From IMG/VR virus record IMGVR_UViG_3300015371_000097, positions 1 to 38,784 of that record: a stretch of DNA of 38,784 nt. One strand, written 5' to 3'. Positions 6,362 through 25,327 of this stretch are shown here, one piece after another. The translations under genes were made by a program, and so were the position numbers. How positions within the stretch are numbered: the stretch's first letter is position 1; each line of letters opens with the position of its first letter. The stretch is from a virus. The notes below the pieces were generated by a model. That model did not search any database. It was not told the origin of the DNA and was given only the letters and a program-made list of their open reading frames with translations.

Positions 6362-6657
6362 TTACGCGCTATCGCCATTTGGTTTGCTTGTGACTGGTGG
6401 CGCGCTCCAGCAAATGGATTGCTTTTTACGGTGGCACGCTGCAGCCCTTGGGTTACTTTCCTTCCAATTGGCACGCTTTGGTCTTTGGATGCGGTGGTCC
6501 TTTTCGGGCTCGCTCGTCAACCTTGGGTTACTGTCACGGGCTGACACGCTCCATGCTTTGGATTGCTTTTTACGGTGGCACGCTGCACCTCTTTGGTTTG
6601 CTCGACTCCCCTGACACGCTATGGTCTTTTTGGTTTACTGTCGTTCCCTGACATGAC
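6362..6657 (-). repeat. A/B 18-bp array 1 (17 motif positions)
   Basis: Read on the minus strand, motif A (AGCGTGCCA type) and motif B (AGCAAACCAA type) alternate with starts 16-21 bp apart, mostly 17-18. Motif starts lie at 6657, 6639, 6620, 6602, 6584, 6567, 6550, 6532, 6514, 6493, 6477, 6457, 6440, 6423, 6406, 6388 and 6370. The two outermost are A. The first B contains the TAA of the gene at 6635-6811. A 29-bp block is repeated exactly at 6415 and 6559, 144 bp or eight periods apart. The remaining 120 bp to the DUF2493 gene show no clear array. Confidence 0.92.
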
Positions 6658-6811
6658 CCGGCATCGTATCGATCACCACCAGCATGATGTCGATGTCTTG
6701 CCGGAGTTTTAGCAAAAAAGCCTTGGCCTCGCTCGGTGTCGGCGCTGGTTCGCTGTCAAAATAGTTATTGAGCGCGTGCTGGACGTTTTTGATACGCTCT
6801 TCCGGTTTCAT
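6635..6811 (-). CDS. Small unknown protein (58 aa) ending inside array 1
   Basis: The frame runs from the ATG at 6811 to a TAA that is part of the first B motif of array 1. The product begins MKPEERIKNVQHALNNYF and carries SEPAPTPSEA, which is encoded by two A-like motifs (AGCGAACCA and AGCGAGGCC) 21 bp apart, as if array sequence had entered the gene. The C-terminal half looks helical. The function is unknown. Confidence 0.6.
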   Translation of the reverse strand: MKPEERIKNVQHALNNYFDSEPAPTPSEAKAFLLKLRQDIDIMLVVIDTMPGHVRERQ

Positions 6812-6822
6812 CCCGCTCCCCG

Positions 6823-6978
6823 CTAATGTGATGTATCCGCCTCACACCTTCTTCTGTAATCAATCGAGTCACGCATTTCGTTGATAAGTTCAGAGTGCCT
6901 TCGGTTATATTCAGCTTCCTCCGCCTCGGTAATAAAGCGGTCCAACTTGGAGTGGTATTCGGTTTCCGACTGTGCCAT
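6823..6978 (-). CDS. Small charged protein (51 aa)
   Basis: It starts with MAQSETEYHSK two bases after the stop of the 181-residue gene upstream. The product is rich in Glu, Arg and Tyr and is probably one or two helices. It lies in the minus-strand operon between arrays 1 and 2. No family is recognised. Confidence 0.55.
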   Translation of the reverse strand: MAQSETEYHSKLDRFITEAEEAEYNRRHSELINEMRDSIDYRRRCEADTSH

Positions 6979-6980
6979 TT

Positions 6981-7526
6981 TCAGAACACCATCACCCGAT
7001 CCGCGATCAGACCATCTGCGATCTGGTCGCATAATCGCCAATTTAGTTGCTGCCATTGTTCTGGCTCTCCGCCATAGTTGCGGCGGCGGATTTCACGCGC
7101 GAGATCGTCGTGATCCAATTCGCCGGACCATGATGCCACCCGGGCGCAGACATTGACGATCAACACCGCGCGTGGCGTTTCCAGATAATCCATCGGCCAT
7201 GCAATGGATTGCTCCATCCAAGTGATTTCCTTGGCGGATGGCAGGATACGGACACGGTTAGCTTGGCGTTGCATTGCTTCGAGTTCACCAGCCCCGATCA
7301 TTGAGAGTAGATCATCCCATTCGACCCGGTAGTTTGGCCACCAACGGCCGAACGCGCGCGGGTAGAACCGAGGCATTGGTAATTTATTCAATGTGCGCCA
7401 TGCATCGGCGAGCCGGAGCCCGACATGCGGGCCATTCCATTCGGCTGGGATGTATTCTGGTGGCGGAACGCCGTCGAGCGGATTCCATTCCTCAATCGTT
7501 TCTTTGCCGGTGAACAGTCGCGCCAC
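6981..7526 (-). CDS. Conserved-looking unknown phage protein (181 aa)
   Basis: The start is a GTG at 7526 that lies inside the last A motif of array 2 (AGC-GTG-GCG). An AAGGA ribosome site eight bases upstream supports it. The product contains EWNGPHVGLRLADAWRTL near residue 29 and FGRWWPNYRVEWDDLL near 59, a pattern I associate with rhizobial-phage hypotheticals, without a known function. There are no membrane segments. Confidence 0.75.
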   Translation of the reverse strand: MARLFTGKETIEEWNPLDGVPPPEYIPAEWNGPHVGLRLADAWRTLNKLPMPRFYPRAFGRWWPNYRVEWDDLLSMIGAGELEAMQRQANRVRILPSAKEITWMEQSIAWPMDYLETPRAVLIVNVCARVASWSGELDHDDLAREIRRRNYGGEPEQWQQLNWRLCDQIADGLIADRVMVF

Positions 7527-7849
7527 GCTTTTTGTCCTTGGTTTTGCTTTAGGACCTTGACTCGCTCATGGTATCGGCACGCATCGAGACCTTGGTTTGC
7601 TATGTGTGGTTGGCTCACTTGTCCATTTGGTTGTTCTGCACGGCATTGGCGCGCTGTTTTATTTGGGTATCGATGCTGCTCGGCTCGCTAGTTTCGTTTG
7701 GTCTGCTGTTTCTATATGGCCGTGTTGGTCGCTATTGCAGTATGGTTTTTGCTTGTAGCCCATTGGCTCGCTGTTTGGCGTTGGGTGGCTAATTTGTATC
7801 GGCTTCGCTCGCTAAATATTGGGTTGCTTGTTTGTGTTCAGGCTTTCAT
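7524..7849 (-). repeat. A/B 18-bp array 2 (about 18 motif positions)
   Basis: On the minus strand, A and B motifs alternate from about 7849 to 7529. Exact 18-bp steps occur at 7707, 7689 and 7671 and from 7655 through 7583. The array fills the whole space between the PEP-CTERM gene ending at 7855 and the 181-residue gene starting at 7526. The last A motif contains that gene's GTG start. Spacing is disturbed near 7725-7753 and 7809-7813, where units look damaged or partly duplicated. Confidence 0.9.
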
Positions 7850-7854
7850 TTTCA

Positions 7855-8433
7855 TCAAGCGTATTTCGGCCACGCCTGCGCCCGCTTTTTCTTGCCGCGC
7901 GCGAACATACCGAGCAGTCCAAGCCCGCCGCCGAAGAGCCATACAGCGCCGGGGATCGGTGTTTCTGCAACCGAAAGGTTGCCGCCGTAGCCCGCGAGGG
8001 TGCCAGCGTCACCTTGGATTTGCAGATAGTAATTGCCGGGGAATAGCAGCCCGGTGCCGTCGAGCGTCTGGCACAGGCCAGAAGCACACAGTGTTGCAAA
8101 TTGCGGCCCGAACTTCAGGATGTCGTCGCCCCCACCGGGAACGCCGACCGTCTCAAAGATCGCGGCCGCAAAGTTCTGGATGCCGAACGGTCCGGTGACG
8201 CCGCCGACTGCAAACGTATTGGTCGCGCTTGCAACGGTGACGAACGCTGGACCACCGACGAGTTGGAAAGTGTAGAAGTCTGTGAACAGACCGCCCACAC
8301 CCACGCCGTTCGGGTCGTTGGAGAATGCACCGGCCGCCGAGGTCGGATTGATCCCGAACGTGCCGATCACAGCCGCTGACGCTGGCATCGCAAGTGCGAT
8401 CAGTGTGGCGGCTGCAAGTAGAAGTTTCTTCAT
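7855..8433 (-). CDS. PEP-CTERM-type exported protein, smaller paralogue
   Basis: The product (192 aa) has a signal peptide, MKKLLLAAATLIALAMPASA, a Gly-rich beta-type body, and a C-terminal sorting tail with PIPGAVWLFGGG, a hydrophobic helix and basic GKKKR residues. This matches the VPxPxAVWLF variant of PEP-CTERM tails, which are processed by an exosortase or related transpeptidase at the inner membrane. GAGG precedes the ATG by seven bases. No exosortase is visible here, so the host would have to supply it. It follows a second protein of the same type. Confidence 0.85.
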   Translation of the reverse strand: MKKLLLAAATLIALAMPASAAVIGTFGINPTSAAGAFSNDPNGVGVGGLFTDFYTFQLVGGPAFVTVASATNTFAVGGVTGPFGIQNFAAAIFETVGVPGGGDDILKFGPQFATLCASGLCQTLDGTGLLFPGNYYLQIQGDAGTLAGYGGNLSVAETPIPGAVWLFGGGLGLLGMFARGKKKRAQAWPKYA

Positions 8434-8516
8434 TGCCGTTACCTCACTTTCAGAAAGTGTCCGGTTTTCTGTGGCGAACCCGTAACCGGACCAACGGGCG
8501 GGAGATGTCCCAGTTG

Positions 8517-9209
8517 TCAGACTCTGACCTCCTTTCTCTTGCGATGGCGCAGGATCGCGCCGCCAATACCGATGCCGCTGGCGAACAGCCAGACCGCGCC
8601 GGGGATTGGAACCTCAGGTGGTTGTTCGAACGGAGTGATGCCGGGACCGCAACAATCAACGACGCCAGTATTTCCGACGCCGCCTTGTCCACTGATGATG
8701 TCGAGCGCCAGAAACGCCGGGACATTGCCCGGTGGATTGGTTGACAGTTCAGTGAAGCTGGCAAGCGTCAGGCCGGTGCCGGAGAGTGTAAAGGTCAGCG
8801 GACCGAAGAATGGATTGCTACCGCCCGGTGGGACGTAATTGAAGCCGTACTCGAAGGTGCCGAAACCATCCTGACCGATAGCACCGGCATTGGCTGTGTT
8901 GGTTGCCGAGTTGGACACATCGAACAGCGCGGCGTTAAGCCCGAAGTCGAATGTGATGGCCTGATTCTGCAGCGAGTTGAAGGTGAAGGTCGTCAGACCG
9001 TTCACCCCACCGACAAGACCGTTGCCATTCAGCGGAGTGATCGTGATGCTGACCGTTCCGCCGCCGAGGTCGGTCCCTGTAATGGTCGCAAAGCCGGTTG
9101 GCTGTGGACCGCATAAGGGATCGCAATGATCGCTCGTGAACGTGGCCGCCTGCCCCGTTCCGCAACTTACCAGCAGGGCGAGCCCTGCCAGCATTCCCTG
9201 TAATTTCAT
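8517..9209 (-). CDS. PEP-CTERM-type exported protein, larger paralogue
   Basis: The start at 9209 has AGGAG about eight bases upstream and gives a signal peptide, MKLQGMLAGLALLVSCGTGQA. The 230-residue product is rich in Gly, Thr and Asn, like secreted adhesin or matrix proteins. It ends with EVPIPGAVWLFASGIG, a membrane helix and RHRKRK. Together with the next gene it forms a tandem pair placed after the replication gene, so it may be a lysogenic-conversion cargo that alters the host surface. Confidence 0.85.
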   Translation of the reverse strand: MKLQGMLAGLALLVSCGTGQAATFTSDHCDPLCGPQPTGFATITGTDLGGGTVSITITPLNGNGLVGGVNGLTTFTFNSLQNQAITFDFGLNAALFDVSNSATNTANAGAIGQDGFGTFEYGFNYVPPGGSNPFFGPLTFTLSGTGLTLASFTELSTNPPGNVPAFLALDIISGQGGVGNTGVVDCCGPGITPFEQPPEVPIPGAVWLFASGIGIGGAILRHRKRKEVRV

Positions 9210-9326
9210 CGAAGTCTGCTCCTGTGTACGGGTGCCCGTGAATATTTTTGTGCGCACGGCCCTTGGCACCCGTCAGAGAGCCAAGGGCCGCTTCACGCGC
9301 GCGGATTCTAATTTGGAAGTGACGGG

Positions 9327-9602
9327 TTATGGTATGGTGAACTGCTGGACAATGTCCGTCAAGCGCCGCTCGACAGCACGCGCAAAATTTCCGTTCGCGT
9401 CGAACGGTTGTGTCCGGCGGTTGTGCGATCTGGTTTTTGTGGGGATCGCCGACGCTACTCCGTATGGTTGCGTCAGCATGGGGCGGAGCCTAGCCCCACT
9501 TTCGGTGTTCTGTCCAGCAGCCGACAAAATTCCTAGCCAATGGAACCCGGCTATCAACCCGATCAGCACCCCGGTTTTTACCCCCACCACTACCCATCCC
9601 AT
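9327..9602 (-). CDS. Small membrane-anchored unknown protein (91 aa)
   Basis: The frame starts at 9602 with a GGAG ribosome site about eight bases upstream. Residues 1-30 form one hydrophobic segment, GWVVVGVKTGVLIGLIAG, which may be an anchor or uncleaved signal. The remainder is basic and soluble. It sits between the hairpin cluster and the PEP-CTERM genes. No family is recognised. Confidence 0.58.
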   Translation of the reverse strand: MGWVVVGVKTGVLIGLIAGFHWLGILSAAGQNTESGARLRPMLTQPYGVASAIPTKTRSHNRRTQPFDANGNFARAVERRLTDIVQQFTIP

Positions 9603-9658
9603 GCTTTTGCTCCACCTACTGCGTCACCCCAAAATCGCTACGGTCCATGTAAGCGTAA

Positions 9659-9768
9659 GCGCCACCCTGTGTGGGCCCCTTTAGGGGCCACAGGTGGCGC
9701 ACGCGGGACCTACGCGACCCGCGTCACATCGTGCGCCACCTCAATATGATGCGGTGGCGCGGTGGCGC
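9659..9768 (-). repeat. Cluster of hairpins with five GCGCCACC/GGTGGCGC copies
   Basis: The octamer GCGCCACC or its complement occurs at 9659, 9693, 9733, 9753 and 9761. The first pair closes a long hairpin with an inner GGCCCC-TTTA-GGGGCC stem. A second hairpin uses ACGCGGG at 9701 and CCCGCGT at 9718. A third pairs 9733-9740 with 9753-9760. The cluster begins 12 bp after the primase-helicase stop. It may act as a terminator or processing site, or as an iteron-like replication site; I cannot decide which. Confidence 0.7.
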
Positions 9769-9779
9769 AGCCCCTAAAA

Positions 9780-11864
9780 CTAGAGCAACCCATTAGTGTC
9801 TTCTTTGTTTTTTATATCGTTCTGGTTGTCCATCTTTTCGCCGACGATGAAGGTCCGTTTTTTCCGATATTGGTCCATCGCCTCGACCTTGAAGAGCGCT
9901 CCACTCTTGAGCCACGTCCGCAACGCCCGGTTGATGAGTGTGCGGTCTTCTTTATCGTCGGCATCGAGATCGCAGACCTCGGCGACCATGCGCCCGACCC
10001 AATCCTGCGACTGTGTATCGGCGCGATACTTGAGTGTGCCGGTACAGTTCTTTTTGATGTAGTCGAATTGCTCGGCGGTGATGCGTGAGAGTGGCCCGGG
10101 GAAGGTAAAGCTGGTCACGACACCAACATCATCATTGTTCGCCAACGTCACGGACGCCATCCCGAACCATGTCGAGTGCTCGGCTGGTGGTGCATAGTTT
10201 GCCTTGCCGTTGTCGCAGCGGAAATATCGCTTGTGCTCGGTGACGCCAGCCTTGGTGGCCTCGCCTTCCTTCATACGGTTGAGGACACGGGCCGAGCGCA
10301 CCGCCCCGATCACCGCGCCTGCGCCACGGGTGTCCTGAATCTCGATGTCGGCGTTCTGGTAGCGCTTGCGGGCATGGTGAAGAATATCGATGGATATCTT
10401 GCGGTCATAGGCGAGCTTGCCGATGCGTTTGCAGAGTTCATCCATCAGGTTGTTGTCGCCCTCCGGCAAACCATGGAACGACACCAGCGGATCGATGATG
10501 ATCACATCGACGTGCAGATCGTTGACCAGCTTATCGAGTGCGGTCCAGCGCGGCGCGTCAAAGACGATGTTGATGTGATGGGCGCGGGCGAGCTTGAGCG
10601 GATCGCTCAGCATGGTTGCAAAATAAAACCGGTAGAGTTCGATGGTTGGGATGCGGTAGAAGTCGCAGATCGCGTGCACGCGGCGCTCAACCTCTTCGAG
10701 CGGCTCCTCGCCGGACAGGTAGAGCACCTTGAGTTTCTCGGTGACCAGCACATTGAGCAGGTTACGGCCGGTCGCCATGGCGATGCCTTCGGCGATGGCG
10801 AGGTTGCTCTTGCCGATCCCGGGGTCGCCGACCGTCGCCGTCACCGCACCGCGCAGATAATGCCGGGCGTAGAGCCAGCGCCGGGGCGGAATGTCTTCCT
10901 GCCTACGCAGGACGGTGATGGCATCGATCTTGATTTCGAGCGGGCCGTCATCGGCCTGCTGCGGGTCAAACGGCGGCAGCTTGTCGACATAGGCATAGAG
11001 CTTCTCGGCGTTGCCACTATCGTCGACGATCCAGTCGGTGATGTCGCCCTTCTCCGGGCATTGATCCCACAGCACGCGCATGTCGAGGTAGCGCACGTTC
11101 TTGGCGACCGTCAGCAGTTCGGTGGCGACCTGCTTGGCATGATCCTGCCCGGGCCGCTTCGGCCGCCCGTCCGGGTGGAAGAGCAGCTTGCCGTCCGGCG
11201 ACTTGGTTTGCGGATCGTTGTCGGCCACCACCACGACATTGGCGTCGATGAACCACTGGTTATAGGCGGTGCGCCATTTGCCCGCGCCGCCGATGTTGCA
11301 GGTCGCCGTTACGCCGATGCGCTTGAGGTTTTCGACATCCTTCTCGCCCTCGACCACAAAGACAATATGGTCGAGCGCGATGGCCTCGATCAGTTCCGGC
11401 AGATGGTAAGGCACCTGCCGCACACCCTTGACGTTCCAGTCCCACTCGCCATCGGTGCCCTTGCGGCGCTGCCGGAAATTCTTCGGCTCAAAGCGGCAGA
11501 CCTGTGAGAGGAATTGCCCGCTCTCGTCGGTATAGTCATAGGTATTGGTGATACGGCCGAGTGTGCCACGCTTGGGCGGCTCATGGCGGGTCTCGCCATT
11601 GGTGAGGTGGCGCTCCTCCATCCAGCGGAAGGCGGCCGAGCCTTCGAGGCCGATCTGGCGCTTGATCAGGTCGAGCACGCCACCGCCCTCGCCCGCCTCA
11701 TGGTCCTGCCAGACCCCCTTTTCGAGGTCGACCGACATTGAGCCGTGCGTGCCGAAGCGCAGTTCACGCTTGCTGGAGAGCCGCTGGTTCGGCTCACCGA
11801 GCAGTTCGCGTGCGACCGGCTCCATCAGGTCGGCAAGGTTGATGCTCTCGCGTTGTTCGGACAC
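9780..11864 (-). CDS. Phage primase-helicase: TOPRIM domain plus RepA-like AAA ATPase
   Basis: This protein (694 aa) probably drives phage DNA replication. Residues 1-90 form a primase-type N-terminus with HEAGEGGGVLDLI. A TOPRIM domain follows, with VEGEKD at about 171-176 and ADND at 214-217. The C-terminal ATPase carries Walker A GDPGIGKS at 346-353, Walker B VIIIDP at 454-459 and a HH pair near 496. The fold resembles RepA/AAA_25 hexameric helicases. The start is a GTG with GGAG upstream. The first 40 bases overlap the preceding small gene. Confidence 0.92.
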   Translation of the reverse strand: MSEQRESINLADLMEPVARELLGEPNQRLSSKRELRFGTHGSMSVDLEKGVWQDHEAGEGGGVLDLIKRQIGLEGSAAFRWMEERHLTNGETRHEPPKRGTLGRITNTYDYTDESGQFLSQVCRFEPKNFRQRRKGTDGEWDWNVKGVRQVPYHLPELIEAIALDHIVFVVEGEKDVENLKRIGVTATCNIGGAGKWRTAYNQWFIDANVVVVADNDPQTKSPDGKLLFHPDGRPKRPGQDHAKQVATELLTVAKNVRYLDMRVLWDQCPEKGDITDWIVDDSGNAEKLYAYVDKLPPFDPQQADDGPLEIKIDAITVLRRQEDIPPRRWLYARHYLRGAVTATVGDPGIGKSNLAIAEGIAMATGRNLLNVLVTEKLKVLYLSGEEPLEEVERRVHAICDFYRIPTIELYRFYFATMLSDPLKLARAHHINIVFDAPRWTALDKLVNDLHVDVIIIDPLVSFHGLPEGDNNLMDELCKRIGKLAYDRKISIDILHHARKRYQNADIEIQDTRGAGAVIGAVRSARVLNRMKEGEATKAGVTEHKRYFRCDNGKANYAPPAEHSTWFGMASVTLANNDDVGVVTSFTFPGPLSRITAEQFDYIKKNCTGTLKYRADTQSQDWVGRMVAEVCDLDADDKEDRTLINRALRTWLKSGALFKVEAMDQYRKKRTFIVGEKMDNQNDIKNKEDTNGLL

Positions 11865-12043
11865 TGACCGCTCCGCTCGTCATCCATGATTGCGTCGATC
11901 AGCCGGTCGGCGACGATCACGGTCAGAAGTTTGTCGATGAATTCGGCTCGCTGCAGGCCGCGTTTGCGCGCGGCCATGCAGAGGACTTCACTCACGCTAC
12001 TGGGCGGTCGAATGAGAACGAACTTTTCCTCGATACGTGGCAT
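11825..12043 (-). CDS. Small protein overlapping the helicase start (72 aa)
   Basis: The product is basic at the N-terminus (MPRIEEKFVLIRPPSS) and contains a helical block, KRGLQRAEFIDKLLTVIVADRL broken only by chain turns, which may bind DNA or the helicase. It overlaps the next gene by 40 bp, a sign of translational coupling, and is the first gene after array 3. A replication-accessory role is inferred from position only. Confidence 0.65.
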   Translation of the reverse strand: MPRIEEKFVLIRPPSSVSEVLCMAARKRGLQRAEFIDKLLTVIVADRLIDAIMDDERSGQCPNNARASTLPT

Positions 12044-12066
12044 TACTCGTCTCGTTTCTGTGTTTG

Positions 12067-12632
12067 CGTTTCGCTAATTGATCTCGGTTTTCTTTCTGGC
12101 ACCGGCTCGCTCTCGTTCTTGGTTGGCTCCAGTATTTGGCACGCTAATGCCCACTTTGGTTTGCGATTAAGCCATCGGCTCGTTCGTCGCTTCTGGGTTG
12201 CTGCCTTGCGCTGACATCGCTCTGGACTTGTGGTCGTCTACCTTTCGTGGCGCGCTGGATCGTTTCGGGTTTACTGGGCCTATTTTGGCGCGCTGTTTTC
12301 CTTTTGGGTGTCTCATGCCATTGAATCGCTCGGGCTAGTGGGTGTCTGCTTTTCGCTGGCTCGCTTGAAACAGATGGGTTGCTACGTGAAACTGGCTCGC
12401 TGGTTGATCCCGGGTTACTCAAACTTATTGGCTCGCTTTCTGCCGTGTCGTGGTTTGCATTTGCCCATGGCTCGCTAATCCGTGAAGGACTTCTTCAGTT
12501 CGATGACTCTTGGCTCGCTTGCTTGACCGGGGTTACGATTTGCAGATGATGACTCGCTTGAATGCGATGGATTGCTAGACACTTCGGGCACTCGCTCTCC
12601 TTGCTTGGTTTTCTCCTTGCCGGTGGCAATTA
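12067..12632 (-). repeat. A/B 18-bp array 3, the longest (about 30 motif positions)
   Basis: On the minus strand the array runs from 12632, where the A-like first motif holds the TAA of the RuvC-like gene, to 12075, just before the 72-residue gene. Exact 18-bp steps run from 12437 through 12347. Motifs alternate A and B throughout except for one place: A at 12519 is followed by A at 12476, 43 bp away, with the B between them lost. Other steps are 17-22 bp. Some sections are open in the Ser-x-Pro frame, but stop codons and shifts exclude one long protein. Confidence 0.93.
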
Positions 12633-13157
12633 CAGTTGCGCACCTCCGAACAGTGGCATCAGCTTGTGCGCGAGGGCTGGTGCCTCGATTGAACATTGAT
12701 ACGCCCACAGCGCGCAGGCATCGGCCGCGTTGTCGTCGACCGGCTCCCAGCCGAAGCGCGCGCAGCGCTGCATGGTCAGCGCCTTGGCCACCTTGCTCTT
12801 GAGGTTCTCGCCGAGAAAGAAGCAGCGCACATCGGACACGCGCGCGAGACGGATGTCGTAGATGCCGAGCTTGTAGGCGATGCCGCCGATCAGGAACGGC
12901 AACCCCATGAGCACCAGCGCCGTGTTGAGCGTGGTGTGGCCGCGCGTGAAGTTCGGCGGCAGCGGCTGCTCGTAGACGAGCAGTGAAGGCTTGACCTCGC
13001 GCAGCAGCGTGATCGCCCATGCCATGGCCTCGGCGGCGATCTGCGCATGGGTGGCGTTGGCCTGCGCGAAACGGTACGAGCCGCTCACCGGCTTGCTGCC
13101 GGGCTCGCCGTGGGCGAAGCCGCTGCGGATGGCGAGATCGAGCGCGAGGATGGTCAT
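12630..13157 (-). CDS. RuvC-like Holliday junction resolvase
   Basis: RuvC-type nucleases cut branched DNA during recombination or before packaging. The 175-residue product starts MTILALDLAIRSGFA with the first acidic residue at Asp7, has VYEQP with Glu63, and DDNAADACALW with further acidic residues at 141-146, as expected for the four-acid RuvC site. The start at 13157 overlaps the previous gene by 4 bp. The stop codon lies in the first motif of array 3. Confidence 0.87.
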   Translation of the reverse strand: MTILALDLAIRSGFAHGEPGSKPVSGSYRFAQANATHAQIAAEAMAWAITLLREVKPSLLVYEQPLPPNFTRGHTTLNTALVLMGLPFLIGGIAYKLGIYDIRLARVSDVRCFFLGENLKSKVAKALTMQRCARFGWEPVDDNAADACALWAYQCSIEAPALAHKLMPLFGGAQL

Positions 13158-13699
13158 GCGCGGCAACGCTCCCGCAATTGCAAAATATTGGCCGGAGGCC
13201 ATAGCTCGCTTTGATCAAGATACCACGTATCTTTCGTCAGCTTGTGACGATCACCGGCAATCTCATAGGTGCAATAGAATTCTGCCTTGGTGGTGAAGCC
13301 ACAGATTTGGCATATCGGTGGTGCTGTCTTGACCAAGACCAGACAATCAAAATCTTTGCTGTCGAAGATCGGATTTTTTCTGACCGGCCAAATCAGGCGT
13401 CGGCCGCGCGATGATGTATTTTTTACATCCCAACGAAGACCGGCAAAATAAATATCTTTGCCATCATCTGGACGATTTTCCCAACTGACCGCAGACAATG
13501 GATCAAGGCCGACATAGAGCGCAAACGCGCATTCAGCCATCTTTGCGTCTGCCCAAACCTTGATGTTGGTGTCAGCACCGTGGCTTGAGTAGGCAAGACA
13601 TTGCGGCCAACAGTGCAAACTGTTGACAACTTCTTCAGCGTGCCGCTCACATCGACGCGCTAAATCACTCGGCAGCTTTATCAAAGGATTCGAATCCAT
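13154..13699 (-). CDS. PD-(D/E)XK-like protein, possible nuclease
   Basis: The start at 13699 (MDSNPLIKLPSDLARRC) overlaps the methyltransferase end by 35 bp; upstream in-frame ATGs overlap it further. In the middle of the 181 residues, DDGKDIYFAGLRWDVKNT provides Asp82, Asp91 and Lys93 in the spacing of a PD-(D/E)XK core, followed by FDCLVLVK as a core strand. Two CxxC-like pairs near 130-133 may bind zinc. Its place between a methyltransferase and a resolvase suggests DNA processing. The nuclease call is motif-based only. Confidence 0.62.
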   Translation of the reverse strand: MDSNPLIKLPSDLARRCERHAEEVVNSLHCWPQCLAYSSHGADTNIKVWADAKMAECAFALYVGLDPLSAVSWENRPDDGKDIYFAGLRWDVKNTSSRGRRLIWPVRKNPIFDSKDFDCLVLVKTAPPICQICGFTTKAEFYCTYEIAGDRHKLTKDTWYLDQSELWPPANILQLRERCRA

Positions 13700-15025: not shown

Positions 15026-15093
15026 TAATTTCTCATCAAAGTTTGTACGGCGAGGTCTGGCGCAACGGTCGTGTCAACCTCATCTTGACTGAT

Positions 15094-17067: not shown

Positions 17068-17122
17068 CCTCCATAGCCGGTTACCGCATCGGCGCGCTCC
17101 CTGTGGATAACGGAGCGCGCCC

Positions 17123-18046: not shown

Positions 18047-18096
18047 TGGGCAGACCTGTCATCGATTTAAGTCAGCGGGAGCAATCAAATGGCTAA
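18046..18096 (+). CDS. Coupled mini-ORF (16 aa)
   Basis: The ATG overlaps the YqaJ stop, and the TAA overlaps the start of the next gene. The peptide is MGRPVIDLSQREQSNG. It probably carries ribosomes across the junction, which also holds the next gene's ribosome site. A second 16-residue mini-ORF at 25636 shares V-I-D-x-x-Q-R. Confidence 0.35.
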   Translation: MGRPVIDLSQREQSNG

Positions 18097-18871
18097 GAAG
18101 ACAAAGGCAACACCATCAGAACCACAGATCAGCGATAAGCCGGTAAACCTCGGCTCACTGCTTTCGATCAAACCGATTTTCCAGCCGTTTCATATTTGGC
18201 TGGTTGGTGACACGCCGTTGATCACCCACGCTTGGTCGCACAAGGCCAAGCTGGAAATGCTGCAGAAGCAGGTCAAGGCGACCAAGGCCGGAAAAGAACC
18301 GCGCGATCCACAGGCCGACTTTGTTTCCTCGCTCTATGAAATGGGCAAGGACGCCAAAGGCCGCCAGATTTACGGCTTCCCGGTGACCGGCGTGAAGAAC
18401 GCCATCATGTCAGCCGCACACAAGGACAAGGGCATCGCTCGCAGCGGCGTGCTCTCGGCGCTCTGGCTCAACGCCGACATGGTGCGCACGCGCCCTGCCC
18501 TTGCCGGGGCGATCTGCGACATGCCGCTCGTCCGCATCTACGGCGGCGATCCCGAAATGCGCGAAGACATGGTGAAGATCGGCGCAGGCCTCAACAAGGT
18601 GGCGAGCTTGGCCTATCGCGGCCAATTCACCATTTGGGCCCTGAAGATCAGCGGCCGATTCAATCCGGCCGTGCTAACCGCCGAGGCGCTGACCTTCCTG
18701 ATTTCCGAAAGCGGATTGTCGGCCGGGCTTGGTGAATGGCGCAACGAGAAAAAGGGAATTTTCGGCGCGTTCCATCTGGCCGATCTCAAAGAGCAACAGC
18801 AGTGGGAAAAATATGCCGAAGGCAAAAGCCCGCTGCCGATCCCGCAACAATACAAGCAGGCTGCGGAGTGA
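18089..18871 (+). CDS. Unknown recombination-operon protein (260 aa), possibly RAMP/Cas7-like
   Basis: The gene sits between the exonuclease and RecT genes. The product has PFHIWLVGDTPLITHAW near residue 33, GFPVTGVKNAIMSAAHKDK near 96, and near the end GLSAGLGEWRNEKKGIFGAF. A central G-x-P-x-x-x-x-K motif and a late glycine-rich loop before a strand resemble the layout of Cas7-type RAMP proteins, but I cannot confirm homology. It may bind nucleic acid with RecT. GGGAG lies before the ATG. Confidence 0.6.
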   Translation: MAKKTKATPSEPQISDKPVNLGSLLSIKPIFQPFHIWLVGDTPLITHAWSHKAKLEMLQKQVKATKAGKEPRDPQADFVSSLYEMGKDAKGRQIYGFPVTGVKNAIMSAAHKDKGIARSGVLSALWLNADMVRTRPALAGAICDMPLVRIYGGDPEMREDMVKIGAGLNKVASLAYRGQFTIWALKISGRFNPAVLTAEALTFLISESGLSAGLGEWRNEKKGIFGAFHLADLKEQQQWEKYAEGKSPLPIPQQYKQAAE

Positions 18872-18874
18872 GCG

Positions 18875-19363
18875 ATGATCAAGTATATATTCAGGGACAC
18901 CGTGACGTTTCGTGGCGCGCGCGATGTCGATCCGCAAGTGATCGGCGAAGCGTTGCAAAAGATCAAGGACGACAACGGCGGCGACCTGCAACCTCAGTAT
19001 GTGTGGCGCGCGGCGAAGATCGCGCGTCATCCTCTGCACAAGCACTTTCAGTGGGATATTCAACTCGCCGCTGAAGCGCACTGGACCGATACATCACGGC
19101 AACTTATCGGCTCAGTCCGCATCGCCAGAGACGACGACCGTTCCGAGCCAATGCCAGCTTTTATCTCCATCAATGATGGCAAGAACGGCACGAGCTATCG
19201 GACGGTTGCCGAAGTAATGGACAACACAGAATTGCAAATCATCGCACTGCGACAAGCAGAGCGTGAACTCGAAGCATTGCTTCAAGATGTTCGAGGATAT
19301 TTGCAGTGCGATCCGGCACGCGAGATCGCTGATCGCAAAGCGTCGCGAGAAACACAAATCTGA
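18875..19363 (+). CDS. Unknown recT-neighbour protein (162 aa)
   Basis: The product starts MIKYIFRDTVTFRGARDVDP and contains LQPQYVWRAAKIARHPLHKHFQWD, here broken at the W, a pattern I know from phage hypotheticals encoded just before recT genes. The C-terminal half is a coiled helix. GGAG lies six bases before the ATG, and the stop of the previous gene is two bases upstream of that start region. The role is unknown. Confidence 0.72.
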   Translation: MIKYIFRDTVTFRGARDVDPQVIGEALQKIKDDNGGDLQPQYVWRAAKIARHPLHKHFQWDIQLAAEAHWTDTSRQLIGSVRIARDDDRSEPMPAFISINDGKNGTSYRTVAEVMDNTELQIIALRQAERELEALLQDVRGYLQCDPAREIADRKASRETQI

Positions 19364-19440
19364 AAGTCGCGCATCCGCGTGATGTGCGGCGAGAGACATG
19401 GCACTTGAGGGAGTTGTTCGGCATGTTTTGCGTTTGTTCA

Positions 19441-19735
19441 GGCCGGTTTCGGCTCGGCTCGGTAAGGCAGGCATGGCATGGCATTTGTTGGCGGGGCAAA
19501 GGCGGTGCCGGTCCTTGCAGGGCGCAGCCGGGCTCGGCGAGGCGGGGCCTTGCAGTCGTGGCAAGGCAGGCTCGGTTCGGAACGGCAATGCAAGGCCTAG
19601 CGCGGCACGGCAAGTCGTTGCCGGGCTCGGCAAGGCAGGCGCGGTTCGGCTCGGATGGCAAGTTTGGGTTGGGAGCGGCAGGGCCAAGCGTCGCCGGGCC
19701 CGGCAAGGCAGGCATGGCACGGCCTGTCCCCGCCC
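19441..19735 (+). repeat. G-rich imperfect repeats built on GGCAAGGCAGGC
   Basis: This 560-bp gap before recT holds about 300 bp of degenerate G-rich repeats. GGCAAGGCAGGC lies at 19560, 19629 and 19702, with GGTAAGGCAGGC at 19461 and a diverged copy near 19536; each is preceded by CGGGCTCGG-like sequence. Spacings of 69-75 bp suggest a unit of about 70 bp. Many frames stay open because of the composition, including one joined to recT, but the recT ribosome site at 19906 argues for no translation here. Confidence 0.72.
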
Positions 19736-19781
19736 GCCGCTGCCGGTCACGTCATGTTACGGCTGGCTTGGTCTGCGTATC

Positions 19782-19811
19782 GACGGTCGGTGCGCAAATG
19801 CGCCGACCGTC
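19782..19811 (+). other. Stable hairpin upstream of recT
   Basis: GACGGTCG at 19782 pairs with CGACCGTC at 19804, and an inner GCGC pairs with GCGC around AAAT, with a two-base bulge. It has no T run, so it is not an ordinary terminator. It may shape the recT leader RNA. Confidence 0.5.
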
Positions 19812-19922
19812 TGCGTTGAAAAGAGGAGCGCCGCGACAAGTGGGCGCATGGTTACTGCGTCGACAGCACAACCCGGGGCACGCTCAAGCAAGGGAAAATG
19901 TTTTGAAAGGAGAACAATAGAA

Positions 19923-20993
19923 ATGGCAACCGCAACCGCCGAGAAAACCGAGAACAAGCCGATCCATCCCATTGTCTCGCTGCAGGCGCAACTGGAAAAA
20001 CGCGCCAGCGAACTCTCGCGCGCCCTGCCCGCGCACATGCCTGCCGAGCGGTTCATCCGCGTCGTGCTGACCGCCTGCCAACTCAACCCCGATCTGCTCG
20101 CCTGCGACCGCACCTCGCTGTGGAACGCCTGCATGCGGGCGGCGCAGGACGGCCTGCTGCCGGACGGACGCGAGGGCGCAATCGTCCCCTACAAGGACAA
20201 GGCGCAATGGATGCCAATGACGCAGGGTCTGCTCAAGCGCTTCCGCAATTCCGGCCAGTTCAAGTCGATCACCGCCGGGATCGTGCGCGAGACCGAACCC
20301 TTCGAACATTGGGTCGATGAGAACGGCGAGCACCTGAAGCATGTGCCGAGTGATAGCGACGGCACCCCGGTGAAGGCCTACGCCGTCGCTACCATGATCA
20401 ACGGCGGCACCATGATCAAGGTCATGGGCCTCGCCGACATCGAGAAGCGGCGCAAGTCGAGCAAGGTGCCGCAGGGACCGATGTGGAAGGACTGGTGGGA
20501 AGAAGCAGCGATGAAGACCGTGCTGCGCAACCTCTCCAAGTATCTGCCGATGTCATCCGATCTCGACGATCTGATCCGCCGCGATGATCCACTCTATGAC
20601 TTCGACAGCACTGCGGCCGAGCGCCCAAAACTTTCCGATGTCGGTTCGGCGCTCGATCATTTCAGTCAGCCAGCAAGAAGTAGCAAACCAGATCAACCGA
20701 GCGGGCCACAGCCCTCCAGCCAACCAGACCCGACGAGCGAGCCAATCCCGCCAAGCAATCCAGAAAAGGAGAGCGAGCCGTCGCCGCCGAGCAATCCAAA
20801 TCCCAGCAGCGAGCCAACGAGTGCCAGCAAACCAGAGGCACCGAGCGATCCCGAGGCGGAGAAGAAGGCCTTCGATCAGGGCGTGAATGCCAAGAAAAAC
20901 AAGATCGGCCGCCGGGCGGTGCCGCCGGAGTACCGCACGCCGGAGACCACGAATCTCGCCCGCGCATGGATACAGGGATGGGACGCCGGATGA
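19923..20993 (+). CDS. recT: RecT ssDNA-annealing protein with array linker and RMF-like tail
   Basis: RecT anneals single strands made by YqaJ. Residues 12-235 match RecT, with ILTACQLNP-like VLTACQLNPDLLACD near 40, GLLPDGREGAIVPYKDKAQW near 77 and KDWWEEAAMKTVLRNLSKYL near 188. Residues 248-313 are a repetitive linker (SxP-xxx, eleven motifs) encoded by array 4. The last 44 residues, with AFDQGVNAKKNKIGRRAVPP and WIQGWD, resemble the RMF/CrpP small-domain family. The start follows an AAAGGAG site. The total is 356 residues. Confidence 0.9.
   Translation: MATATAEKTENKPIHPIVSLQAQLEKRASELSRALPAHMPAERFIRVVLTACQLNPDLLACDRTSLWNACMRAAQDGLLPDGREGAIVPYKDKAQWMPMTQGLLKRFRNSGQFKSITAGIVRETEPFEHWVDENGEHLKHVPSDSDGTPVKAYAVATMINGGTMIKVMGLADIEKRRKSSKVPQGPMWKDWWEEAAMKTVLRNLSKYLPMSSDLDDLIRRDDPLYDFDSTAAERPKLSDVGSALDHFSQPARSSKPDQPSGPQPSSQPDPTSEPIPPSNPEKESEPSPPSNPNPSSEPTSASKPEAPSDPEAEKKAFDQGVNAKKNKIGRRAVPPEYRTPETTNLARAWIQGWDAG
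20664..20861 (+). repeat. A/B 18-bp array 4, inside recT
   Basis: Eleven motifs start exactly every 18 bp from 20664 to 20844, alternating A (AGCGAGCCA: Ser-Glu-Pro) and B (AGCAATCCA: Ser-Asn-Pro or AGCAAACCA: Ser-Lys-Pro). Perfect spacing here contrasts with the drifting 16-20 bp in intergenic arrays and shows selection for the reading frame. First and last motifs are A. Confidence 0.95.
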
Positions 20994-21118
20994 AACGCAA
21001 ACCAGCCAAGATGGCGAAGCACACCAAGACTAGAAAGCGCCCGAAGAAACCATCGCCGCGCTTTTTCTACCGCGCACTCGCTCGTTCACCGTTCGATGAC
21101 CTGCGGAGGTACCGATGA
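20990..21118 (+). CDS. Small very basic protein (42 aa)
   Basis: The ATG overlaps the recT stop (ATGA) and the TGA overlaps the next ATG. The product, starting MKRKPAKMAKHTKTRKRPKK, is rich in Lys and Arg and ends FFYRALARSPFDDLRRYR. It probably binds nucleic acid. It is too short for standard gene callers, but coupling at both ends supports it. Confidence 0.62.
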   Translation: MKRKPAKMAKHTKTRKRPKKPSPRFFYRALARSPFDDLRRYR

Positions 21119-21417
21119 GCACCGCCGAACAAGTCGCCAGTGACATCATCGCCAACAACATCGATATCGATACTGCCCTGCTTGGCGCGCGGGTGATCCA
21201 CCGTGCCATGGCGGTGGCGATCAGCATGCAGAAACCGGACAGCCAAACGGCGGACGCGATCATCTATTCGGTCATTGGCCTCACCGCCGCCGAGGCGATG
21301 AAGCTCGCCGTGCTCAACGGTATGGACCGTCAGGACTTTCTCGATCTGTGCCGCGATCTTTGGCCCCAAGCCGAGGAATCGATAGCCGAACTCATCCAGT
21401 GCGAAGGCACCGCATGA
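21115..21417 (+). CDS. Unknown helical protein (100 aa)
   Basis: GGAGG lies five bases before the ATG. The product is helical and acidic at the end, with IIANNIDIDTALLGARVIHRA then LTAAEAMKLAVLNGMDRQDF. Neither segment is a membrane helix. It is coupled on both sides in the operon. No family is recognised. Confidence 0.68.
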   Translation: MSTAEQVASDIIANNIDIDTALLGARVIHRAMAVAISMQKPDSQTADAIIYSVIGLTAAEAMKLAVLNGMDRQDFLDLCRDLWPQAEESIAELIQCEGTA

Positions 21418-21626
21418 CCGAACCGAGACCACCGGCACACACGATGCTCGAACAGGCGAAAAACGCCTTGGGTGAACTGCACGATTACGTTGTCGCGCAT
21501 CACGAACATCTCGATCTCACGCGCGTGTCGTTATTGGCGTCGGTTGTGCAGACCAAGCTCGAAGCGGCGGCCAAGGAAATTGCCGAGGCCAGTTGTGACA
21601 TCGAAACTTCACTCAATCGGATATGA
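21414..21626 (+). CDS. Small helical protein (70 aa)
   Basis: The ATG overlaps the previous stop by four bases. The product, MTEPRPPAHTMLEQAKNAL onwards, forms one or two amphipathic helices. It has no cysteine pair or catalytic motif. Position in the recT operon is the only functional hint. Confidence 0.65.
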   Translation: MTEPRPPAHTMLEQAKNALGELHDYVVAHHEHLDLTRVSLLASVVQTKLEAAAKEIAEASCDIETSLNRI

Positions 21627-21629
21627 GCC

Positions 21630-22268
21630 ATGGCAGTCGAAGCAAAGAGAGGATGTGGATTCCGAAAAGTAAATGGCCTCTACATCGTCGGCGGCAAGCT
21701 GTCGGATGGCTGCTGCAAGCTGCCGATACCGCTGCACATCTGTCCGACCTGCGCGCAAGGCGTCAAGCAGACGCGCGGCTGGTCATGGATCAATCCCCAG
21801 CCATGGCTTGGCAGCACTAACTGCACGCTCAAGACGCGCGTCCTGTGCCCGGCTGCCAATCCAGAAACGATGTTGGGTGAGCGCGTCGGCCTACTCTGGA
21901 TCGGCCGCGCGTTCTACCCCACGCCGGGAGCCTTCGCGCACGAGGCGGCGCTACACGGGGTAAGCCGCCGCATCCGTGCGATTCCTCGCGGGTTCAAGCT
22001 CGGCGAGCATTGGGTTTTGCTTGCCCACCCGGAGGCCTGCATCGTCGACGGCGGGAAGGCTCCCGGCATCTTCTCCATCTTCAAGCCGACCGCGTTCGAA
22101 AAGATCGTCACGCAAACGCAGTCGGAAGACGCCGAGGCGATGGCTGATCTCGCCGAGCGCGGCATCACCCCGGTAATCGTGCCGGACGACGACCACGACC
22201 ATCAAGGCAGTGTCTACGACGAAGCCGACGACGCCGAACTGGCGCTTGAGGAACAGCATCCGAATTGA
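21630..22268 (+). CDS. Cysteine-rich phage protein (212 aa)
   Basis: The N-terminus EAKRGCGFRKVNGLYIVGG, then LHICPTCAQGVKQTRGWSW, is typical of a group of phage hypotheticals with a zinc-binding Cys set (CPTC near residue 38 and CGF, CC and CP pairs). A central domain holds YPTPGAFAHEAALHGVSRRI. The acidic His/Asp-rich end, DDDHDHQG, may be disordered. The stop codon lies in the first motif of array 5. The role is unknown. Confidence 0.75.
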   Translation: MAVEAKRGCGFRKVNGLYIVGGKLSDGCCKLPIPLHICPTCAQGVKQTRGWSWINPQPWLGSTNCTLKTRVLCPAANPETMLGERVGLLWIGRAFYPTPGAFAHEAALHGVSRRIRAIPRGFKLGEHWVLLAHPEACIVDGGKAPGIFSIFKPTAFEKIVTQTQSEDAEAMADLAERGITPVIVPDDDHDHQGSVYDEADDAELALEEQHPN

Positions 22269-22567
22269 GCCACTGAGCGATAACAACCCAATATCAGGAA
22301 GCGCGCCACTGACACCAGCAACCCCGGAGCAATAGCGTGCCGAAGTTTTTACGTAACCCAATCTGTGCAGCGGGCCATCAAATGTCAGCAATCCAAAACC
22401 TGCGAGCGCGCCAGCATATGAGAGCAACCCAATGCGCATCAGCGAGGCCGGGAGATGGTAGTCACCCAAAGATCGAGAGCGAGCCAGAAATGTTCAGCAG
22501 ACCGAACTGATCGAGCGAGCCAGAGCAGGCGAGCAACCCCGAAGCGAAAAGCGATCATTAGCGGAGG
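22264..22567 (+). repeat. A/B 18-bp array 5 (17 motif positions)
   Basis: Motifs start at 22264, 282, 300, 317, 334, 352, 369, 387, 405, 423, 441, 460, 478, 496, 514, 532 and 550, alternating A and B without exception and starting and ending with A. The first A-like motif holds the TGA of the upstream gene. The array reaches to the GGAGG ribosome site of the IS110-like gene. Spacers of 8-9 bp are all different. Confidence 0.95.
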
Positions 22568-22576
22568 AACCAAGCA

Positions 22577-23533
22577 ATGCCCGACAACGTCCACGTTCTG
22601 CGAATCATGGTGCGCGGTGCCTACGATCTGCAAGCCCTGCGTATGCAATCCGGCCTACGGCTGTGCGCCAACTTTCGCGCCCGGCTGAAAGACAAGATCG
22701 CCGCCGACGCCGATGAGGATGAAGAAGCCGAGCTTGGCGAGGCTGCACTCAAGGTCATCGAAGAACTCAAATCATCGTATCGCCGCCTCACTGATGGGGT
22801 GGCGCGCAATCGCGCCCTGCCCGACCAGCAAAAGTTTACCGGCGATGCGCTGATCTCGACCTTCACCGAACTCGTGTTGGTGTCGCAGTACATCGATCTG
22901 GAATCGCAGGAGCAGCGTCAGTTTCGCCAGATGACGGCGACGCTGGAAGCGATACCAATCTACAAAGCCTTCCTCGAACACGAACGCGGGGTCGGTCCAG
23001 CGCTGGCCGCCGTGCTGGTGACCTATTTCGATCCGGCCAAGGCACGGCACGTCTCTTCATTCTGGAAATATGCCGGGCTCGACGTGGCGCAGGACGGCAC
23101 CGCTCGCTCGCGGCGCAAGGAGCATCTGATCGAGCGGGCCTATACCGACCGCAACGGCCGCGAAGCCACGCGGCTCTCGACCACCTATAACCCTTGGCTG
23201 CGCATGAAGCTGCTCGGCGGGCTGGCTCCGAGTTTCCTGCGCTCGGCATCACCGCGCCGCAAGCTCTACGACGATTACCGGACGCGGATCATGACCGACC
23301 CGGACCGCAAGAAGGTCACGGTCGCCGAGTGGAAGCGGGCGTTCCACGCCGAGGAGGATGTGCGCAACCTGTGGCCGCCGGGGCGCATCCACAAGGCGGC
23401 GCTGCGTTACATGGTGAAGATTTTCCTGATCGACCTGTGGCGCAACTGGCGCGAACTCGAAGGCCTGCCGGTGACGCCGACCTATCACGAGGCGCGCCGT
23501 GGTTATGCCCACGGTAGCGAAGCAGCGGAGTAG
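22577..23533 (+). CDS. Protein with IS110-type (Transposase_20) C-terminal domain, no RuvC-type N-domain
   Basis: Residues 125-175, with HERGVGPALAAVLVTYFDP then SFWKYAGLDV, match the helix-hairpin-helix-bearing domain of IS110/IS116/IS902 transposases, followed by TTYNPWLRMKL and a C-terminal RIHKAALRYMVKIFL. The first 125 residues are an acidic helical region without the DEDD RuvC-like motifs, so it is unlikely to transpose like IS110. Its length is 318 residues. Arrays 5 and 6 flank it directly. GGAGG lies before the ATG. Confidence 0.8.
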   Translation: MPDNVHVLRIMVRGAYDLQALRMQSGLRLCANFRARLKDKIAADADEDEEAELGEAALKVIEELKSSYRRLTDGVARNRALPDQQKFTGDALISTFTELVLVSQYIDLESQEQRQFRQMTATLEAIPIYKAFLEHERGVGPALAAVLVTYFDPAKARHVSSFWKYAGLDVAQDGTARSRRKEHLIERAYTDRNGREATRLSTTYNPWLRMKLLGGLAPSFLRSASPRRKLYDDYRTRIMTDPDRKKVTVAEWKRAFHAEEDVRNLWPPGRIHKAALRYMVKIFLIDLWRNWRELEGLPVTPTYHEARRGYAHGSEAAE

Positions 23534-23668
23534 CCACTTGATGATAGAAACCCAAAGCGACCCAGCGAGCCAGCATGCTTATAGCCAACCAGACGGGGAA
23601 GCGAGCCATTCGATCAAGCTAACCAACCCAAGCAGCGCGCCATAAACACGAGGCCACCATAGGAGAAG
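23528..23668 (+). repeat. A/B 18-bp array 6 (8 motif positions)
   Basis: Motifs start at 23528 (A-like, containing the TAG of the IS110-like gene), 546, 564, 583, 600, 617, 634 and 651. They alternate A and B with 17-19 bp steps. The array fills the gap to the AGGAG ribosome site of the next gene. Confidence 0.92.
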
Positions 23669-23672
23669 AGCG

Positions 23673-24062
23673 ATGACCATCAATACACCTGACCCGGTCG
23701 AGAACGGCATCAAGGAATGGCAGAAGGTGAAGGCGGCGGCCGAGGAGGCTCTTGCGCGCGCCAGCAAGGCGGAAGAAGAAGCGGCCTTCCTGCGCGGCCA
23801 GAACGTGCTGCTGCAGGAGCAGTGCGAGCAGTCAGGTGAACGGCTGCGCAACATGCAGCAACGCTACGACGAACTCGGCTTGATGTGCGGGGCGCTCGGC
23901 ACCGCCGTGCTGGAGATTATCGACAAGCACAAGCTCGGCGGTTTTCGCAGGGCCGGAAGCATCGAAACGACCGGCGAAGAGGTCACCGAGATCGAGACCG
24001 GTGTGCGCGATCTTATCCGGCAGAATCGACTCAAACCCAAAATCCAAGCTGCGCGGCAGTGA
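23673..24062 (+). CDS. Coiled-coil protein (129 aa)
   Basis: Residues 14-65 form an uninterrupted coiled coil rich in Ala, Glu and Lys (WQKVKAAAEEALARASKAEE onward). The remainder has LGTAVLEIIDKHKLGGFRR and a basic end. AGGAG lies eight bases before the ATG. The TGA lies in the first motif of array 7. The function is unknown. Confidence 0.68.
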   Translation: MTINTPDPVENGIKEWQKVKAAAEEALARASKAEEEAAFLRGQNVLLQEQCEQSGERLRNMQQRYDELGLMCGALGTAVLEIIDKHKLGGFRRAGSIETTGEEVTEIETGVRDLIRQNRLKPKIQAARQ

Positions 24063-24177
24063 CGCCATCGTCCTCCAGCAGACCAATGTTTCAGAGCGGA
24101 GTCAGACCAAATAAGCAAACCAACTTGTGAGGAGCGAGCCAGTATCCACGAGCCAACCACATTTCGTGAGCGTGCCA
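24058..24177 (+). repeat. A/B 18-bp array 7 (7 motif positions)
   Basis: Motifs start at 24058 (AGTGACGCC, containing the upstream TGA), 24077, 24095, 24114, 24133, 24151 and 24169, in the order A-B-A-B-A-B-A with 18-19 bp steps. The last A motif runs into the next gene: AGCGTGCC-ATG supplies its start codon. Confidence 0.9.
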
Positions 24178-24779
24178 TGCAAACCGAAAAGATCACCGTC
24201 AGTCGATGGGAAGCCGCCAAGCTCTATCAGCAATACAAGACTCACGCCGCGTACTCCGAGCCCATCGATTGGGAAGTGCAGCGCACCTACGATCTGCTCC
24301 GCAAGGGCAAGGTCATCATCCGCGCACTTGAGAGCATCAAGCAGGCCGGGCTGAACCGTGACTTTTTGCCCAAGCTGGCGCTTACGTCTGCGCTCGCCAA
24401 GCATTGCCGACTGGTGCGCTACCGCGATGGTCAGTTCTCGATGTCGCCGCGCACCAACTCGCCGCGCTCGACCAAGAATGTCTACAGCTTCAGGGAAAAC
24501 ACCTTCGCGTTTCCGGCTGAAAGTTTCCCGATGAGTTGGGATAAAAAATTTCGGACGAGCCTCAGCGAACATGAAGCTCTTGTGCCGATAATACCGGTCT
24601 TCCTGAGACCAAAACGCGGGCTCGAAAACTACTCGATTCTCTGGGAGGCCGAATGGGAGCGGCTGCCGCCGCGTGACCCGTATTTGCTGCGCCGCATCGG
24701 CAAGGCCGACCTGTGGGTCGTGGTTGCGCACTGGGACTTGACCGAGGTCGAACGCGCGGCGCTATCAACGAGGATGTGA
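24177..24779 (+). CDS. Unknown phage protein (200 aa) starting inside array 7
   Basis: The ATG is part of the last A motif of array 7, and no good ribosome site is visible at normal distance. The product has RWEAAKLYQQYKTHAAYSEP near residue 10 and a C-terminal block, VPIIPVFLRPKRG, YSILWEAEW and DPYLLRRIGKADLWVVVAHW then DLTEVERA, which I know only from phage hypotheticals. The function is unknown. Confidence 0.7.
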   Translation: MQTEKITVSRWEAAKLYQQYKTHAAYSEPIDWEVQRTYDLLRKGKVIIRALESIKQAGLNRDFLPKLALTSALAKHCRLVRYRDGQFSMSPRTNSPRSTKNVYSFRENTFAFPAESFPMSWDKKFRTSLSEHEALVPIIPVFLRPKRGLENYSILWEAEWERLPPRDPYLLRRIGKADLWVVVAHWDLTEVERAALSTRM

Positions 24780-24781
24780 CC

Positions 24782-25327
24782 ATGGACTGTTCACCGATCC
24801 TTGCCCTACTCGCCATCTGTACGCCTGTGCCGGATGGCCCACCAAAGGCGCTGCCGCTGGCGGACGAGAAGCCAGCGGCGGTGTGCATGACCAAAGAGCA
24901 GGCGCGGGCAAAATATCCCAAGGCGTGGTTGTACTGGCACGGAGCGAGCCATTGCTGGGACAACATCCCGGGTCGTCGGTCAAGCACCGCTAGAAGCGAG
25001 CCAATACCCATCAGTAAACCACCCGCGCCGAGCGTGGCCAGTGGATCAAAGCAACCCAACTCCGACCAGCGTCCATCACACGAAATCATCTATCCCGTTC
25101 TGCGCAACAGCCTCGGCGTCGGACCGGAAATGTTGACCGCATACGAACTCACACACTGGCCGCTCTTGATTGATCTCGACGAAATGTTCGACACGCCGCC
25201 CGATCCCGATAATGGCATTGACGGCTGCTGCTGGCCGAAACTGGAGACGCTCGATGAAACGCAAAATCAGCAAATTGCCACCGACCATGTACGTCAAACT
25301 GGAAAAGGGGGCCGGTGGCGGCGCTGA
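24782..25327 (+). CDS. Possibly exported protein with array-encoded linker (181 aa)
   Basis: It starts two bases after the previous stop. The N-terminus MDCSPILALLAICTPVP is weakly signal-like. A block AVCMTKEQARAKYPKAWLYW then HGASHCWDN resembles exported phage proteins with paired cysteines. Residues 72-100 contain SEPIPISKPPAPS encoded by array 8. The last third holds WPLLIDLDEMFDTPPDPDN. The two halves may be separate domains joined by the array. Confidence 0.68.
   Translation: MDCSPILALLAICTPVPDGPPKALPLADEKPAAVCMTKEQARAKYPKAWLYWHGASHCWDNIPGRRSSTARSEPIPISKPPAPSVASGSKQPNSDQRPSHEIIYPVLRNSLGVGPEMLTAYELTHWPLLIDLDEMFDTPPDPDNGIDGCCWPKLETLDETQNQQIATDHVRQTGKGGRWRR
24995..25085 (+). repeat. A/B 18-bp array 8, inside a coding region
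   Basis: Motifs start at 24995 (A), 25013 (B), 25031 (A), 25050 (B) and 25068 (A). The first three are 18 bp apart and in the Ser-x-Pro frame; a one-base insertion before 25050 shifts the motif relative to the frame. A lone A motif lies upstream at 24943 in another frame. Confidence 0.85.

Follow-up and report, generated by a model that had tools for sequence, protein, structure and literature searches.

The 38,784-nucleotide virus record IMGVR_UViG_3300015371_000097, analysed here over its whole length and referred to as the window, is a fragment of a tailed phage that very probably carries a TIGR-TasA system, formed by eight arrays of short alternating repeats and the protein encoded by the open reading frame (ORF) at 22577–23533. 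The system is of a known kind; the architecture of its arrays, which are dispersed through the genome and in part embedded in coding genes, is unusual. According to the main text of Faure et al. 2025 (PMC12045711), TIGR arrays have two alternating repeats of 8–12 nucleotides (nt), named edge and loop, with spacers of ~9 nt, and lie beside a gene for a Nop-domain Tas protein, while their RNA product, the tigRNA, is 36 nt long and is bound by a Tas dimer. The window has the dual repeats, edge repeats with internal pairing, A-rich loop repeats and an adjoining Tas gene in whose product no nuclease domain was found. The observations that carry this assignment are the arrays, the tasA gene, the predicted fold of its product and the pairing pattern of the repeats.

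The eight arrays cover 19 kb on both strands, with arrays 1–3 on the minus strand and arrays 4–8 on the plus strand, and are built from two alternating repeats of about 9 nt with a step of ~18 bp. The first, motif A, has the consensus AG-CGnG-CCA (AGCGAGCCA) and is the edge repeat; the second, motif B, has the consensus AG-nAA-nCCA (AGCAAnCCA) and is the A-rich loop repeat. The two were assigned from the A-richness of B, the additional pair in A and the fact that parts of A form both ends of most arrays. When trained on the window itself, a chain model places the eight arrays far above shuffled sequence and counts 56 A and 55 B repeats, with soft array ends; the total of 111 is close to the 113 or so motif positions proposed in a first-pass annotation of the sequence. 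Circularity was removed by retraining the model solely on repeats of nine other loci. The retrained model recovers all eight arrays near the positions given in that annotation, with scores for arrays 1 to 8 of 149, 72, 228, 115, 141, 69, 47 and 38, while the best chain in 60 dinucleotide shuffles scores 19.0 and the single match in 273 kb of DNA from other phages is a tas-linked array of the phage concerned. Hence the equal density of motifs in shuffled sequence or unrelated genomes, which had been named as the finding that would speak against the arrays, is absent. A plus-strand trio at 6275–6319 was considered as a further array and rejected, its score being only at shuffle level.

The spacers are 7–13 nt long, mostly 8–10, and 54 of the 89 spacers of 8–10 nt measure 9 nt, so that the length of 8–9 bases first reported captures the commonest value and understates the span. 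They are mutually unrelated across arrays, one exact duplicate excepted; in array 1 the spacer CCGTAAAA is present as a duplicate. Array 1 (6362–6657, minus strand) has 16 repeats, starts on a 5'-truncated edge (..TGTCA) and ends with AGCGCGTAA. Array 2 (7524–7849, minus) has about 14–16 repeats, is partly degenerate around 7729–7751 and is ambiguous at both ends. Array 3 (12067–12632, minus) has 30 repeats, lacks one loop repeat at 12497 and ends with AGCGAAACG. Array 4 (20664–20861, plus) has 11 repeats and spacers that are all 9 nt; it lies in frame within recT, where it encodes a SEP/SNP linker, and ends with AGCGATCCC. Arrays 5–7 occupy gaps between operon genes and touch stop and start codons: array 5 (22264–22576, plus) fills the gap from the stop of the upstream ORF to the start of tasA; array 6 (23528–23677, plus) begins at the tasA stop codon, with GTAGCCA, and finishes on the ATG of the next ORF; and array 7 (24058–24177, plus), clearest at 24114–24177, lies between the ORFs 23673–24062 and 24177–24779 and finishes on a full edge. 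Array 8 (24995–25076, plus) is short and lies in frame within the ORF 24782–25327. Inspection of the ORF list shows all eight arrays to be co-directional with neighbouring genes. The order of A and B had been described as strict save for one lost B; that loss is the one in array 3, and the degenerate units of array 2 are a second departure. Likewise, the arrays do mostly start and end with A, as had been noted, to the extent that they begin and end on parts of it: several finish on an incomplete A, in which AGCG runs into unrelated bases, and several begin on the 3' half of an A, the ends having been read by eye for most arrays. Beginning and ending on parts of the edge repeat is a property of TIGR arrays according to the main text of the TIGR-Tas paper (PMC12045711).

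The gene between arrays 5 and 6, tasA (22577–23533, plus strand), encodes a predicted Nop-domain protein of 318 residues. In phmmer searches of solved structures the ORF matches TasH (4.7e-9) and TasR (4.6e-8), and a profile of its 27-sequence family matches, among solved structures, TasR 9mty (4.4e-23), TasH (4.8e-18) and nothing else. A fold predicted from the single sequence was uninformative and was replaced by a good alignment-based fold with a predicted local distance difference test score (pLDDT) of 82 and a helical N-terminal part, for which the 11 matches in the PDB at E ≤ 1e-3 are all TIGR TasR or TasH. No HNH or RuvC nuclease domain was found in the ORF in a Pfam search, and the DEDD transposase domain, N-terminal in IS110, was not found either, the match to IS110 being confined to the C-terminal Transposase_20 region. 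As no nuclease domain came to light, the predicted product is classed as TasA, a Nop-only Tas.

The repeats themselves carry a pairing pattern of the expected type. For TasR, the main text of Faure et al. 2025 describes a box C/D pair together with an extra pair in the edge. Of 957 edge repeats pooled from different loci, 85% have a standard pair between positions 2 and 7, against a column expectation of 74%, with switching between A-T and G-C or G-T, and 88% pair position 3 with position 6 (81% expected) as C-G, T-G or T-A. In the loops (n=939), positions 2 and 7 pair in 85% and positions 3 and 6 in only 8%. Because the sequences are related, the pairing excess is taken as supportive and not as a formal test.

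The association of such arrays with tas extends well beyond the window. Relatives of this TasA were found at 45 viral loci, nearly all with a dual-repeat array, and the published Salicola phage CGphi29 (SpTIGR) was recovered by tblastn. The converse search, for an edge-loop-edge DNA pattern with tas ignored, gave at least 119 viral stretches. Among the matches listed, a Tas ORF is present on 86 of 119 array-bearing stretches, and 105 of the 127 arrays on tas-bearing stretches lie within 300 bp of the Tas ORF, 126 are on the tas strand and 6 are more than 1.5 kb from tas. The arrays thus track with a particular gene, which was the check that the first-pass annotation had proposed; its statement that no described system has such a layout was mistaken, as TIGR arrays are defined by this very layout and the window has a matching Tas gene between two of its arrays. 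No relatives based on RecT or primase were found in viral contigs. Four viral records with TIGR-like arrays (L116, L203, L140 and L195) have no Tas hit on the record and may be fragments or carry an over-divergent Tas. In three close TasA relatives (L007:3236-4633, L008 and L009) the edge AGCGAGCCA is retained, but the loop is another one, (A)TCAACATCA, without the usual AG..CCA boxes.

By analogy with the published system, the arrays would be co-transcribed with the surrounding phage operons, and TasA together with a host RNase would release 36-nt tigRNAs with the order AGCCA, spacer A, loop, spacer B and AGCG, each of which would be held by a TasA dimer through the box C/D motifs of edge and loop. 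The ribonucleoprotein would then unwind about 18 bp of DNA, with spacer A pairing to one strand and spacer B to the other, and bend it strongly. The most likely products of the arrays are 36-nt tigRNAs, by which a TasA dimer would be directed to DNA. The guess made from the sequence, that either a dimeric reader or a 36-nt RNA unit is involved, agrees with the Tas dimer and 36-nt tigRNA that have been published (PMC12045711). RNA-guided DNA binding without cleavage is a probable activity for this TasA. Since no nuclease domain was detected in TasA, its most likely role is to block DNA as a programmable roadblock or to bend it; the roles suggested for TasA in the TIGR-Tas paper's main text span this same range. 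That it acts against rival mobile elements is a tentative suggestion, one that we would sooner doubt than accept.

Targets were sought in the geometry in which the top strand consists of spacer A followed by the reverse complement of spacer B, with a gap of 0–2. It follows from the cut positions and the 8-nt 3' overhangs that have been published; the side of the cut is given two different wordings in the main text (PMC12045711), of which the version that agrees with 3' overhangs was adopted. Exact scans of viral contigs with two pairs gave no match for one pair and one exact 20-nt, zero-gap match for the other. The latter, an array 3 guide at 12294 (AAATAGGCCC / GAAACGATCC), matches L222:3142-3161 (AAATAGGCCCGGATCGTTTC) with the two-strand geometry that was predicted, and the site falls where a VRR-NUC-like gene of another phage fragment has its 3' end. 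The match is only a lead, because chance alone gives 0.1–0.3 such exact matches by a rough estimate that takes the collection to be ~50 Gb. The site is missing from related phages, and no other guide of the window matches these well in the target geometry.

Several points weigh against the assignment and the guide function proposed for it. The Pfam Nop model (PF01798) gave no match to TasA, and the sole Pfam family near the cut-off was the IS110 C-terminal Transposase_20 (5e-4). The pair test pools related repeats across loci and ignores their shared ancestry. No terminator-like site was found on the same strand directly after any of the arrays; a rho-independent terminator is typical there and not obligatory according to the main text (PMC12045711), and its absence fits arrays that lie inside operons. 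The spacer pairs have no self-targets at two or fewer mismatches, their matches with 3–4 mismatches equalling those of shuffled pairings, and in 1.09 Mb from related phages 761 pairs gave 7 one-mismatch matches in the expected geometry against 5–6 in three control geometries, which is the level of chance.

The lack of self-targets also bears on the reading that the guides regulate the phage's own genes, by self-targeting or as a processing switch for operon mRNA, and do not attack other elements. The position of the arrays favours it: some sit in operon gaps, against stop and start codons, and two sit within recT and a second ORF, and their processing would cut the mRNAs concerned. However, matching to the phage's own DNA in the published geometry is the same as for shuffled pairings, and an excess of spacer 8-mers over mononucleotide shuffles disappears against a fourth-order Markov genome (250 in the actual genome, 254 in the Markov one), so that this reading seems unlikely.

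The arrays inside coding genes can also be read in another way. In recT (19920–20993, plus strand) the RecT core is followed by array 4 and then by a C-terminal tail that resembles ribosome modulation factor (RMF; 0.004, below the Pfam cut-off), and array 8 is carried in frame by a hypothetical gene for 181 residues (24782–25327, plus). Both arrays could be Ser-x-Pro linker repeats maintained at the protein level, whose DNA resembles TIGR repeats by coincidence; the SEP/SNP segments do look like disordered linkers, and array 8 is short, with a score of 38. Against this, all 11 serines in the motif slots of array 4 are encoded by AGC or AGT (background 34%, P=7e-6) and 9 of its 11 motif-slot prolines by CCA (background 18%, P=8e-6), while spacer-slot prolines mostly use the usual CCG; this codon bias indicates that constraint acts on nucleotides and not on amino acids alone. 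The edge and loop alternation of array 4 is likewise maintained, and the array scores 115 where shuffles reach at most 19 in the model built from repeats of other phages. In-frame arrays also recur elsewhere. In a sister phage (G002/L006; L056:5844-5995; support 97/82 in the Tas tree) an array of 8–9 repeats lies in frame within tasA itself, as a Ser/Pro-rich insert in the Nop protein, and in a distant tas-bearing phage (G019/G020; L134:7872-8042, L156:9920-10090) a 10-repeat array is set in frame into the linker of a primase-like protein and is 14 kb away from the tasA and the main array of that phage. The four coding-embedded arrays share the phase AGC-GAG-CCA, which reads Ser-Glu-Pro. A protein-level origin of arrays 4 and 8 is thus improbable.

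The embedded architecture is observed in the window, the sister phage and one distant phage. A proposal that we regard as nearly evenly balanced, with the scale slightly on the side of doubt, is that TIGR arrays spread through the phage genome and live in frame in its genes, one transcript being mRNA and guide precursor at once; TasA would then trade protein (RecT, primase or TasA) for guides. Under this proposal, arrays 4 and 8 would be cut from protein-coding mRNAs, and guide production would compete with synthesis of RecT or of the array 8 protein. That the arrays are DNA-level binding sites for a dimeric protein, parS-like or iteron-like and with no RNA step, is very improbable: the short alternating motifs have near-constant spacing and their co-orientation could mean a directional complex, but the linked protein is related to RNA-guided Tas proteins, a ParB_N search gave none, pairing within the edge is kept with changes on both sides, and the spacers are mutually unrelated but for one exact duplicate.

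The dispersal of the arrays is also unusual. Almost all of the long relative records that were scanned in full or for the most part show one or two arrays that flank tas, compared with eight in the window, where arrays 1–3 are 10–16 kb from tas; the sister phage has five. Neither wide dispersal nor arrays inside coding genes was found in the main text of the TIGR-Tas paper (PMC12045711). Elsewhere in the window, tailed-phage genes encode terminase subunits, a RuvC-like resolvase, a primase/helicase, a RecE-like exonuclease and RecT. A low-complexity GC-rich stretch upstream of recT (19398–19900) contains 20-bp tandem repeats (19590–19636) and Gly-Lys-Ala-Gly-like repeats. The ORF 23673–24062, between arrays 6 and 7, encodes a small, coiled-coil-like protein with a weak match to the Thoeris inhibitor Tad4 (8e-4, below the cut-off). 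A transfer RNA gene, tRNA-Asp (gtc), lies on the minus strand at 29950–30027 and is surrounded by large ORFs on both strands with no family match.

Questions about TIGR-Tas, a system published in 2025, include what makes phages carry it, by what route its arrays expand and relocate, and which targets its guides have. Arrays scattered in operon gaps and coding linkers bear on array origin and spread, and the eight arrays of the window, with about 43 spacer pairs and hundreds more in relatives, provide material for a target search given host genomes. Among known systems, CRISPR-Cas also has interspersed repeats with unique spacers and inferred guide RNAs. The window differs in its two alternating 9-nt repeats, ~9-nt spacers and linked Tas-related protein, and its arrays have no single repeat of 25–36 nt with spacers of similar size; the first-pass annotation had correctly excluded CRISPR, iterons and repetitive extragenic palindromic or bacterial interspersed mosaic elements (REP/BIME). 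The IS110 transposases, which are bridge-RNA recombinases, have a C-terminal Nop-like domain in common with the window protein (Transposase_20, 5e-4), whereas the latter has no detected DEDD domain and is accompanied by a multi-unit array instead of a single bridge RNA. The TIGR-TasH of Salicola phage CGphi29 shares the edge AGCGAGCCA, a near-identical loop (AGACAACCA) and a homologous Nop domain, but its TasH has an HNH nuclease and its single array of ~22 repeats lies beside tas. The closest likeness is to TIGR-TasA as the main text of Faure et al. 2025 (PMC12045711) presents it, which likewise has alternating 8–12-nt edge and loop repeats, ~9-nt spacers, a Nop-only Tas, phage location, box C/D-like pairing and arrays directly upstream and downstream of tas. 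The window differs from it in having no terminator-like site after its arrays, in the spread of eight arrays over 19 kb and both strands with three of them 10–16 kb from tas, and in the two arrays that lie in frame inside other genes.

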